Part shown: piece by piece, positions 1,761-33,524 of the stretch
How the letters are laid out: each line of letters starts with the position of its first letter
Position numbering within the stretch: position 1 is the first letter of the stretch
Assembly: GCA_019359505.1 (NCBI GenBank)
Contig: JAHHHD010000004.1
Location: 62,001 to 126,000, forward strand
DNA from: Drouetiella hepatica Uher 2000/2452
GTDB lineage: Bacteria; Cyanobacteriota; Cyanobacteriia; Elainellales; Elainellaceae
Reading direction: 5' to 3'
Length of the DNA stretch: 64,000 nt
The notes under the pieces: generated by a model
What the model saw: only the letters and a program-made list of their open reading frames with translations
Databases searched by the model: none
Told to the model about the DNA's origin: nothing
Made by a program: the position numbers and the translations under genes

Positions 1761-1853
1761 ATAGCAACCGCCAAGGCGGTTAGGACGGGGACATTGGGGG
1801 TGGGGCGCGAAGCGCCCCACCCCCAATGTCCTCAGCAAGCTGGCGACAGCTAT
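1761..1853 (+). repeat. Family A compound palindromic element, copy A1
   Basis: Layout: a small hairpin AACCGCC-AA-GGCGGTT, then a long palindrome (GGACATT...AATGTCC, with a GC-rich core around GAA), then a conserved tail CTGGCGACAGCTAT. Related copies lie at 25011-25095, 29724-29824 and, inverted, 33435-33524. The element ends 6 bp before the TGA of the ABC ATPase gene on the other strand, so it may shape that mRNA's 3' end. Confidence 0.8.
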
Positions 1854-14297: not shown

Positions 14298-14468
14298 AGC
14301 GCTAAACCCAGCTTCCAGGAATTGCAAGTCGTCAGCTCTAGTCTGCCCAATCTCAGGAATCTGCAATCGTCTGTAAGTAGGCTGCCGCGCGCTGCATTGT
14401 TTCGGCAGAGAGACTAGAATTCTCAACATGACTGAGCACAGCGACTGGCGACAGCCATACTACAGACG

Positions 14469-24923: not shown

Positions 24924-24973
24924 ATGAATTTTTTGGGAAAGGGACGCTCCGTAACCTTTCCCAAAAAATTCAT
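24924..24973. repeat. Perfect palindrome upstream of the antiporter gene
   Basis: 19-bp arms (ATGAATTTTTTGGGAAAGG and its exact complement) around a 12-nt loop GACGCTCCGTAA. It is AT-rich outside and GC-rich inside, like the palindromes at 27900-27943 and 1690-1734, but the sequence is unique in the window. Confidence 0.75.
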
Positions 24974-25010
24974 ACATAAAATCAGAAACGCCTGATTCTG
25001 ATATGGCAAC

Positions 25011-25095
25011 CGCTAGGGCGGTTAGGACAGGGACATTCTTGGTGGGGGGCGAAGCCCCCCACCAAGAATGTCCTAAGCAAACTGGCGACAGCTAT
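25011..25095 (+). repeat. Family A compound palindromic element, copy A2
   Basis: Same layout as A1: AACCGCTAGGGCGGTT hairpin, then a long palindrome with GGACATTCTTGGTGGGGGGC and its complement around GAA, then the tail CTGGCGACAGCTAT. The core CTTGGTGGGGGGC differs from A1 but both arms changed together. It ends 5 bp before the mltA stop. Confidence 0.85.
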
Positions 25096-25100
25096 GGAGA

Positions 25101-26282
25101 CTACTCTCTGAGCAGTAAATAATAAAGCTGCCCGTTGCTGTTGATTAGCCCCGCCCGATCGCCCGCCTGGGAACCCGTACCCATAAACACATCCACCCGT
25201 CCGGCTCCTCGAATAGCACCCCCTGTATCCTGATCCAACACATAGCGAGACGCAGGCTCTAGTACAAGCTGTCCTTGACTATTGGTAGGCAGCTGCGTCT
25301 GGATGAACGCCAATGCTCCGGGCGGCATTAGAGATTTGTCGGTGGCGATCGATCGTTCTGCCGTCACGGCTAAACCCAAACTGCCTGTTGCAGGTGCGCC
25401 GCCCGTTTCTTCAAAGAAGATAAACCGATTGTTTCGCGGCAAATACAAATCAAGATCGGCTGGATTGTCCCGAAAGTATTGGATCAAACGCGGTAGGGTT
25501 AGCTCCTCCAGCTTAAATTTGCCCGCATCCACCAAGGCTCGTCCTATGCTGACGTAGGGATAGTCCGTGTGCCCTGCCACGCCCACCGACATTGTGCCGC
25601 CCTCTTTGAGCTGGAGCCGAGCCGAGCCTTGCACCTGCACCAGATAGGCCTCTAGGCGATCGCGTAGCCAGACCAGCTCTAATCCTCGCAGCTTTCCCTG
25701 AGATGCTTGCAGCCCATCTGCACCTTCGAGCTGAAGTCGCGTAGGCTGAGGGCGTGACCAGTCCCTCATGTTGGGCGGCAGGCGATAGAGCGGATAGCGA
25801 TACTCTGCGGTGGGCACTCGGCTAGCCGCATAGGTCGGTTCAAAATAGCCCGTGAACCCCACGGTTCCCTGCCCGTCCTTGCCCACGGATTGATAGAAGA
25901 CAAACTCTTGTATCACTGACGCTTGAAGCTCTTCAGGCGATCGTGCCCCCAGCAACAGCTCTCGAAACCGCTCTAAGCTCCGATAGACCCGATCAGCCGT
26001 AAAAGCTGGAATCGCATATTGCCGATAGGCGGTTCTAGCTGCCGGACTCGCCAGATAGGTAAGGGAACGATCGATCGATTGAATTAGCGCTGAGCGATCG
26101 CCAGAATTGCCACCTGTTCCCCAAAGGCGATTGTCTAGCCCCTGGGCTAAACCAGGCGAGGCGACAGGCTGCAAGGGTAAGCCCTGCTCTGAGCGAATCG
26201 GTGAGGCTGAAACGGTGAGGACGGCAAAAAGCGTCAGGCAGAAAAGGAGCGATCGCATTATGAATTTCAAATGACGGGTCAA
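25101..26282 (-). CDS. mltA: Membrane-bound lytic murein transglycosylase A
   Basis: A 393-aa exported enzyme. A signal peptide (RSLLFCLTLFAVLTVSASP) is followed by the MltA barrel domain: GTVGFTGYFEPTYAAS, LVQVQGSARLQLKEGGTMSVG and AGHTDYPYVSIGRALVDAGK. The 3D domain closes the protein with PASRYVLDQDTGGAIRGAGRVDVFMGTG, which carries the catalytic Asp region. It cleaves peptidoglycan glycan strands to 1,6-anhydro sugars during wall growth. A lipobox is not evident. It lies 33 bp downstream of the TIGR04222 gene in the same direction. Confidence 0.93.
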   Translation of the reverse strand: MTRHLKFIMRSLLFCLTLFAVLTVSASPIRSEQGLPLQPVASPGLAQGLDNRLWGTGGNSGDRSALIQSIDRSLTYLASPAARTAYRQYAIPAFTADRVYRSLERFRELLLGARSPEELQASVIQEFVFYQSVGKDGQGTVGFTGYFEPTYAASRVPTAEYRYPLYRLPPNMRDWSRPQPTRLQLEGADGLQASQGKLRGLELVWLRDRLEAYLVQVQGSARLQLKEGGTMSVGVAGHTDYPYVSIGRALVDAGKFKLEELTLPRLIQYFRDNPADLDLYLPRNNRFIFFEETGGAPATGSLGLAVTAERSIATDKSLMPPGALAFIQTQLPTNSQGQLVLEPASRYVLDQDTGGAIRGAGRVDVFMGTGSQAGDRAGLINSNGQLYYLLLRE

Positions 26283-29446: not shown

Positions 29447-30175
29447 AAGGATTTATTTGGCATAATGGCTGATATTAAGCGGCGGAAAATACGGTTGCCC
29501 GCAGCAGCGTTACGGTTCAACAGTGTTCTAGTGCTCTAAACGCTTTTTGAGAAAAAACGCTAAAACGCTGAACAAGAGAAGTTTCTCTTTAAATATCCTA
29601 CCTGTGCTGCTATTGATTTCAAATTTGGATGATGTTGTCTATAAGATGCTTGCCAGAAGTGAGGTATGCTAAATCTACTTTGTATCAAGGCATCACAAAC
29701 TGCGATTTCAACGCTGGATAGGTGTAGCAACCGCCAAGGCGGTTAGGGCGGGCGCATTTTGGTTGGGTGGGGCGCTTAGCGCCCCACCCAACCAAAATGC
29801 CCTAAGCAAACTGGCAACAGCCGTAACACCTCTGAATCTAATGCGATCGTTTCCGGAATCTATTCTTGAATCTGTTAGTGCCCATAAGCTTTAAAGTTGC
29901 CATTAAAGCGCTCTTATTTTGTGATTAATCAATGGGTTGGATTTACTGCTCTAAGCTTAAAGGTTTTATGATTTTTGCTTTAATTTTAACCTATGCCAAA
30001 GGATATAGATATCGTTGAGAATTCTGGCTCGAGATGAATCAGGTTCTAGAGTCTTCAGAAAATGCTTTCAATTGCTGATCTGCCTTACCTAATATTAAGT
30101 ATCTACTCTACTTCTAATTCAGATTCAAGCTACTTGTCTATCCTGCATTTGCCGTGCTGAGCTGTTCTCAAACCT
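29447..30175. other. Intergenic region between divergent glcD and the CPA2 antiporter gene
   Basis: 729 bp with no credible gene. The only structured object is the family A element at 29724-29824. The part from 29825 to 30175 is AT-rich (for example ATTTTGTGATTAATCAATGG near 29915) and presumably holds the promoter of the antiporter gene. No riboswitch or RNA motif was recognised. Confidence 0.5.
29724..29824 (+). repeat. Family A compound palindromic element, copy A3
   Basis: AACCGCCAAGGCGGTT hairpin, then an extended palindrome whose arm reads CATTTTGGTTGGGTGGGGCGC, longer than in A1 and A2, with a TTA loop, then the tail CTGGCAACAGCCGTA. Both arms carry the extension, so the palindrome has been kept while its sequence changed. 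Confidence 0.85.
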
Positions 30176-33296: not shown

Positions 33297-33434
33297 GGGG
33301 ACGCTCCTAAAAGTTAGAAAGGTGGAATGAAATGCTGAGAGCATTTGTTGTTACAGAGGCATTCGCCATTACACACTATTCAGGGCAAATCATAGAAATT
33401 ATGCATTTATCGATCTGATTTACCGATCTGTTTT

Positions 33435-33524
33435 GGCTGTCGTCAGTTTGCTGAGGGCATTTTGGGTGGGGCTCGCAGCGCCCCACCCAAAATGCCCCGT
33501 CCTAACCGCCTTGGCGGTTGCCAT
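33435..33524 (-). repeat. Family A compound palindromic element, copy A4 (inverted)
   Basis: In reverse complement: AACCGCCAAGGCGGTT hairpin, then GGCATTTTGGGTGGGGC paired with its complement around GCTGCGA, then the tail ending GACGACAGCC. The right flank, ATGAGAATTGCT, resembles the flank of family C palindromes. It lies in the 383-bp gap between the MSHEN-like gene and ppk1; the rest of that gap shows nothing recognisable. Confidence 0.8.

Follow-up and report, generated by a model that had tools for sequence, protein, structure and literature searches.

The window, by which we mean the whole stretch of 64,000 nucleotides of Drouetiella hepatica DNA that was analysed, contains four copies of a palindromic element (family A), all present at the places where an earlier note on this DNA had put them (Table 1). 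Each copy sits between neighbouring genes, as that note had also claimed, and these genes are ordinary: 8 of the 9 reading frames scanned beside the four copies have Pfam matches, with a FAD oxidase and a sodium/proton exchanger as neighbours of copy 3 and a polyphosphate kinase as neighbour of copy 4. Two of the copies do abut stop codons, minus-strand genes ending a few bases past copy 1 (an ABC ATPase gene, at 1860) and past copy 2 (an MltA gene, at 25101). A mechanical 147-codon TTG frame (1749-2192) runs across copy 1 and was taken as spurious. Across the window, Rfam at the gathering threshold gave only a tRNA and no known RNA family for the palindromes.

Table 1. Positions of family A features in the window and of related loci elsewhere.
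Feature	Position	Strand	Remarks
Copy 1, whole MITE	1762..1852	+	TA duplications 1760-1761, 1853-1854
Copy 1, core arms	1789-1808 / 1812-1831	+	loop GAA
Copy 2, whole MITE, TGGC...GCTA	25004..25094	+	sequence; empty site in G002:C839
Copy 2, left end, small hairpin AACCGCTAGGGCGGTT, part of left terminal inverted repeat	25008..25023	+	
Copy 2, core hairpin	25031..25073	+	arms 25031-25050 / 25054-25073, loop GAA 25051-25053
Copy 2, right terminal inverted repeat TAAGCAAACTGGCGACAGCTA	25074..25094	+	
Copy 3, whole MITE, longer core	29725..29823	+	flanking dinucleotides TG and TA
Copy 3, core, 22-bp perfect arms	29754-29775 / 29779-29800	+	loop TTA
Copy 4, whole MITE	33434..33523	-	flanking dinucleotides CA and AA, no TA left
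Copy 4, core, 18-bp arms	33480-33497 / 33455-33472	-	7-nt loop 33473-33479
Cyanobacterial loci with the left end bracketing IS630-like frames			L013, L030, L045, L064, L069, L085
RAYT-type fragment, L252	G000 C82:91948-92229		NCBIfam, above cut-off

The coordinates first given cut into the element, and the copy listed from 25011 is delimited by its ends as in Table 1. The flanks described as common to all four copies are shared but not identical, since the left hairpin of copy 2 carries two changes relative to the consensus and the tails of the 29724 copy (CTGGCAACAGC) and the 33435 copy (CTGACGACAGC) carry one each. In all four copies the central arms vary in sequence and length and yet pair, as had been noticed; in copy 2 the core pairs at 20 of 20 positions, and stem columns 30 and 40, like the variable columns 31/32, carry two-sided changes.

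Other repeats lie in the same window. A MITE of a second family (family B), with a GAGAGCCGCGC-loop hairpin, lies in the region 1650-1762 and directly adjoins copy 1 as well as further repeat-like sequence (TACCAATTTGAATTGG...), apparently through nested insertions. A lone right end of family A (CTGGCGACAGCCATA) at 14445-14459, with no left end or core in the preceding 125 bases, is probably a decayed copy.

Family A elements are MITEs with IS630-type ends

Family A palindromes are non-coding IS630 (Tc1/mariner)-type MITEs of about 91 bp with imperfect terminal inverted repeats on either side of a core hairpin, whose stem measures about 20 bp and whose loop is 3 nt long. What the earlier note had treated as two conserved flanks are the two different ends of one element rather than independent motifs: the left terminal inverted repeat, TATAGCAACCGCCAAGGCGGTTAGGAC, and the right end, which reads TATAGCTGTCGCCAGTTTGCTTAGGAC when reverse-complemented, are identical at 19 of 27 positions (our own count, from the consensus). 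Among 116 copies collected from the same genome, TA adjoins the left end in 80 and the right end in 84, being found at both ends in 55 and at neither in 7. Flanks other than TA are CA or TG in 27 of 36 cases on the left and 22 of 32 on the right, and the first bases after the flanking dinucleotide are TAGC in 55 of the 116 copies and TGGC in 44.

Copy 2 lies between TA (25002-25003) and TG (25095-25096), the latter read as a decayed TA. Its empty site could be seen in the same-genus genome G002, which has TTCTGA-TA-GAGCC where the window has TTCTGA-TA-[element]-TG-GAGAC. The aligned gap in G002 exceeds the element because a second long palindrome (ATGAATTTTTTGGGAAAGG...CCTTTCCCAAAAAATTCAT, window 24925-24974), located just upstream of copy 2, is missing there too. 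In a further same-genus genome, G003, the stretch matching the site of copy 1 is 240 bp shorter and that matching the site of copy 4 about 123 bp shorter; at the 25011 site, G003 has a longer, diverged stretch, which speaks neither for nor against an empty site. In G002, the 29724 region aligned poorly, with no element seen, and the 33435 region was not alignable.

The same left end, and with it the IS630-type terminus, is common to other species: at six cyanobacterial loci it occurs in inverted pairs, 958-1001 bp apart, around IS630-like frames (Table 1), and NCBIfam model NF033545 confirms IS630 in all three loci scanned (L013, L030 and L085). These belong to ten inverted end-pairs, eight of which were translated (L019 and the 131-bp MITE L081 were left out) and three scanned against NCBIfam; one of the eight, L027, shows no IS630-like frame. 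A Gloeothece plasmid has a 28-bp match to the end, at the margin of an annotated IS630 transposase. In the element's own genome, two IS630 copies, at C21 and C47, have the ends TATAGCCGTAGCC..TTAGGACG and TATAGCTATAGCC..TTAGGACG (also written TATAGCCGTAGCCAACTAAGTTAGGACG / TATAGCCGTAGCCACCTTCATTAAGACG at C21 and TATAGCTATAGCCAGCCTAGTTAGGAC / TATAGCGGTAGCCACCTCCATTAGGAC at C47); these ends have the same plan as the MITE ends, to which they are similar, not identical. The exact AACCGCC..GGCGGTT end was found as own end at none of 20 own IS630 loci in a scan at up to 3 changes, the sole match of which was an ordinary MITE copy near one of them (L130). Judged from these sequences, the likely mobiliser of family A is a resident IS630 transposase.

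The left-end 16-mer AACCGCCAAGGCGGTT has 222 sites at up to 1 mismatch in the own 6.4-Mb genome and 0 in a reversed-pattern control, so that the palindrome family is not a product of chance; the 426 sites at up to 2 mismatches count most sites twice, because the complement of the 16-mer lies only 2 mismatches away. Of 39 other genomes, 8 contain a match, with a maximum of 4 sites each. A 95-base consensus query found nine matching places in G002, eight in G003, and none in G001 or G004; in the own genome, 40 of 380 candidates were scored with this query, and one listing of stretches comprised at least 78. The stretches fetched from the 6.42-Mb genome total 1.64 Mb and yielded the 116 copies with both ends; about 0.95 Mb of this is near-contiguous (53 copies) and the rest was mostly picked around known sites (63 copies). 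One of 117 matches (L091 5640) was a second start of a copy already included and was dropped from all counts. Exactly 85 bp separate the inner ends in 76 copies, all of them distinct, and the 40 of other lengths were left out of the pair counts and included in the scan for flank extension.

Strong hairpins number 262 in 1.64 Mb, about 160 per Mb (L090-L129, L180-L199, L210-L229 and the window, in part chosen around matches). Composite copies, with a second hairpin module (CATGGATTTAACAAGATGTAATTCTTGGGGTAGGGGCTTAGC...) behind the core, occur in L104, L106, L111, L125, L127 and L128, and the stretches read contain nine copies of this module. Four loci of G002 and G003 (L151, L157, L158 and L161) carry elements with the same stem base (TTAGGACATTT...) or a similar one, three of them having different end sequences, as would be seen if cores and ends were exchanged or drifted separately.

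Copies are strongly intergenic: 10 of the 116 have their midpoint in a greedy ORF of at least 100 aa, and such ORFs cover 79% of the 1.64 Mb (gene calls are ORF-based and crude). With these ten and four copies without both neighbours left out, 102 remain for the counts of placement. Within 30 bp of a stop codon lie 31 of the 102, versus 10.3% of TA sites in element-free gaps, and between convergent genes lie 25, versus 16% of intergenic bases, while near starts (up to 30 bp) there is no enrichment (13 of 102 versus 13%). This placement fits the view that 3' insertions are tolerated, an argument made about pneumococcal repeats in passages of an earlier study (PMC3049150).

Co-variation of arms, orientation of loops and overwriting of flanks

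The copies were collected, their cores aligned and their covariation tested, as the earlier note had proposed, and across the 76 copies of equal length the arms co-vary above shuffle. The core stem comprises 20 pairs, hence 1,520 cells, of which 1,335 have the consensus pair, 105 a two-sided change that pairs, 37 a change confined to the left side, 42 one confined to the right side, and one a double change that does not pair; two-sided pairing changes stand at 105 against 79 one-sided ones. When right arms were dealt to other copies, none of 10,000 shuffles reached the observed pairing (80 mismatches; lowest shuffle 205), a value which, like that of the Fisher test below, ignores relatedness among copies and is not a true probability. 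The result does not hang on the two most variable pairs, without which 43 two-sided cells are left (shuffle mean 5.1, maximum 14, in 2,000 shuffles that likewise ignore relatedness), and 28 distinct alternative pair types are found over all 20 pairs.

The small AACCGCC..GGCGGTT hairpin of the same 76 copies has 0 two-sided and 47 one-sided changes plus one double non-pairing change, and shows no signal (6,437 of 10,000 shuffles at or below the observed value). Since it is part of the same molecules, with the same relatedness, and has no compensation, it serves as an internal control. Departure from the consensus per site is 7.7% in the flanks and 9.6% in the arms, so the arms are not simply conserved, and the 79 one-sided changes are common enough that correction is incomplete. 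Transitions and transversions stand at 26:17 among two-sided core changes (columns 31/32 left out), 69:9 among one-sided changes and 155:80 in the flanks, a contrast that was not used because it is confounded by position, 64 of the 79 one-sided changes being in base and loop-side pairs. Some copies have arms equally longer or shorter on both sides, for example copy 3 (93 bp) and a copy in L182 (77 bp); among the 40 copies that are not 85 bp long, 24 have odd and 16 even lengths, an excess too weak to be used alone.

Two-sided changes are distributed unevenly along the stem. In mid-stem, the two most variable pairs left out, they outnumber one-sided ones 29:14, and in the 7 bp on the loop side the ratio is 7:35 (Fisher p 2.6e-6 versus mid-stem, relatedness ignored). 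The two base pairs of the stem have 7 two-sided and 29 one-sided cells, so that the two-sided signal is limited to the interior of the stem.

Both orientations of the loop are present: GAA in 33 copies and its reverse complement TTC in 20, with further such pairs at TCC/GGA (4/1), GCA/TGC (7/1), TAA/TTA (4/1) and TTT/AAA (3/1), plus one ACA and no TGT. Opposite loops were found on identical arms. In addition, one flank equals the opposite flank in reverse complement in four of the 116 copies (L099, L120, L124 and L219), whose perfect arms measure 39, 29, 29 and 29 bp, respectively, with 0 mismatches, when the other 112 copies reach at most 22. Comparison with the consensus indicates overwriting in both directions, L124 and L219 having a copy of the right flank on the left side and L120 one of the left flank on the right side.

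The picture is the same, on fewer changes, for family B (left end CCCTACGTAATTGAGTTAGGAC, right end GGATCTAAGCGCGTAGCGC). Its 46 copies in the stretches include 30 of one length, and the 16 of other lengths were left out of the pair counts. None of 10,000 arm shuffles reached the observed pairing (18 versus a lowest value of 22), loops are GGA in 15 copies, TCC in 14 and GTA in one, and all nine changes in the three loop-side pairs are one-sided; the arm changes are few, 8 two-sided and 18 one-sided. In Coleofasciculus S288, a different core is associated with the same left end as family A, with GGT as the loop at three loci and ACC as that at a fourth.

Origin of the symmetric arms

Co-variation between the arms of a hairpin is usually taken as strong evidence for a functional RNA. 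The earlier note had offered two causes for the coordinated changes, template-switch copying and selection on the fold. The first is supported by the two-sided changes, the inversion of loops, the gradient from loop to base and the overwritten flanks; the second lacks support. We regard it as highly probable that family A is a non-autonomous IS630-type MITE, moved by an IS630 transposase in trans, whose arms are rewritten by replication template switching, a process that is reportedly known from E. coli reporters as well.

In this explanation, the transposase, probably that of resident IS630 copies, would have moved family A in trans into TA sites, mostly between genes, and the core arms would have been rewritten by template switching after or during dispersal. 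The replicating strand would fold back at the loop, use the loop-proximal base pairs as primer, copy the opposite arm outward and then switch back, which would make the arms exact complements again and sometimes leave the loop inverted; occasionally the copied tract would pass the stem base into the flank. If arms are re-copied by template switching, co-variation needs no selection for a folded RNA, and a fold-back primer on the loop side together with a limited copy tract would give the gradient between mid-stem and loop side. From the mutation patterns we infer the fold-back geometry of priming, and the rewriting appears to have taken place after insertion, in situ, rather than around transposition. 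When 15 loci of G002 and G003 were compared with the 1.64 Mb of the own genome, no site was occupied in both, and hence no switch from ancestor to descendant was seen at one locus; in this search the flanks of 8 of the 15 loci matched and seven were inspected (L154, with a 69-base match, was left out), one of them (L152) matching on one side only. Contigs C54 and C35 are syntenic with C861 and C345 of G002, respectively, with elements in both genomes at different places.

Dispersal of source copies that were already symmetric explains part of the variation, notably at pairs 31/57 and 32/56, where common alternative alleles are shared by many copies, as subfamilies would produce. That such founder variation is everything, i.e. 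that several already-palindromic source elements were amplified and no arm is rewritten now, we consider very unlikely, because the 37 copies with perfect cores have 24 distinct arms, 21 of them seen once, because both loop orientations occur on identical arms, and because each of the flank-overwriting forms is found in a single copy. Moreover, a process that makes each source palindromic would still be needed.

Also very unlikely, in our estimate, is compensatory selection, in which the transcribed hairpin has a function, such as protecting or ending messages, and second changes were selected after one-sided mutations. The fold is very stable, the copies are enriched near stop codons as described above, and the one-sided changes are what would be expected of intermediates. 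However, selection on RNA predicts an excess of G-U mismatches in the sense of the transcript, and neither the 32 copies between same-direction genes (11 G-U versus 21 A-C, binomial p 0.11) nor the 32 copies up to 100 bp after a stop (15 G-U versus 21 A-C, p 0.41) differ from an even ratio, which argues against it; overall, the 76 copies have 37 G-T/T-G and 33 A-C/C-A mismatches. The two loop orientations (33:20), the poor compensation of loop-side pairs (7:35), the uncompensated small hairpin (0 versus 47) and the overwritten flanks, which look like tract changes made in one step, also count against it. Nor do the elements resemble intrinsic terminators: a T-run (at least 5 T in 10) follows the stem in none of 76 plus-strand and one of 76 minus-strand readings, 1 of 152 in all, and a role of family A in message ends, though possible, has no support. 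Selection on an RNA fold is thus unsupported by transcript-sense wobble, loop orientation, the small hairpin or T-runs.

A REP/REPIN system mobilised by a REP-associated tyrosine transposase, the enzyme for which the earlier note had suggested a search, would account for small palindromes at high copy number between genes, and one RAYT-type fragment does exist in the genome (C82, 95 bits versus an NCBIfam cut-off of 80), but this reading is extremely improbable given elements of about 91 bp that carry TA duplications and two non-identical inverted ends, a left end that brackets IS630 transposases elsewhere, the assignment of three of four scanned Y1 proteins to IS200/IS605, and no part of family A within 1.5 kb on each side of six of seven Y1 loci including the RAYT-type fragment (L251, overlapping L249, was left out). 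The Y1_Tnp search and NCBIfam lend it no support.

Returning to template switching, the many copies and the internal control hairpin suggest that the co-variation of family A arises from DNA copying. The family would thereby provide, in a bacterium, a natural assay of template switching with many copies, informative on tract limits, loop inversion and direction, and a caution for the discovery of RNA families in repeat-rich genomes. We are evenly divided over a stronger proposal, that the genome keeps its mobile palindromes straight purely by mutation. Under this proposal, template switching would rewrite every insertion where it stands and in either direction, priming from a zone of a few bp on the loop side, converting a tract of about 11 mid-stem pairs and occasionally running over into the flank. 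If this is true, near-perfect hairpins with 3-nt loops would be a mutational attractor at which unrelated MITE families arrive without selection, and in bacterial repeats, arm co-variation alone would be no evidence that an RNA is functional.

Comparison with known mobile elements and template switches

ISY100 of Synechocystis, an IS630/Tc1-mariner element, is cyanobacterial and duplicates a TA target, like family A, and the published passages on it describe terminal inverted repeats of about 24 bp that are thought to be sufficient in cis (PMC2170065). Family A differs in having no transposase gene and other end sequences, and its mobility is deduced from sequence. RUP of Streptococcus pneumoniae is likewise a folded MITE with IS630-type ends, 107 bp long, with 110 copies in one genome and over-representation between convergent genes; it is AT-rich and belongs to a different host with a different sequence, and the passages that deal with it mention neither arm rewriting nor loop inversion (PMC3049150). 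Cyanobacterial MITEs such as Nezha and those of Anabaena sp. 90 share with family A their short length, multiple copies, mostly intergenic location, inverted ends and folding, but the Anabaena elements are classed, in the part of that report concerned with them, as unrelated to the IS ends of their genome (PMC3542288), whereas family A has IS630-type ends.

REPs are described in the relevant sections of one study as units of 20-40 bp that bear either a GTAG or a CGTC tag, those with GTAG being linked to RAYT-type transposase genes; GTAG-tagged REPs, cyanobacterial families included, are similar to family A in being intergenic palindromes with complementary stem variants (PMC3733652). At about 91 bp, and with TA duplications and IS630 ends, family A is outside that definition.

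The MITE type and template switching are thus each known in principle. No report of the two together in a bacterial MITE was found in print: titles, abstracts and passages of the open-licence PMC literature yielded none on family A or on arm rewriting in such an element. Homogenization of arms and inversion of the spacer are published marks of template switching, which the accessible passages describe in yeast genes and in RNA genes (PMC8604942, PMC8794818). There, as in family A, two-sided changes, loop inversion (including GAA to TTC) and arm extension are found, and the comparison was of genes along trees (PMC8604942, PMC8794818). Family A, in contrast, offers a single mobile hairpin that is present in many copies within one bacterial genome, together with an internal control hairpin and a gradient of position.
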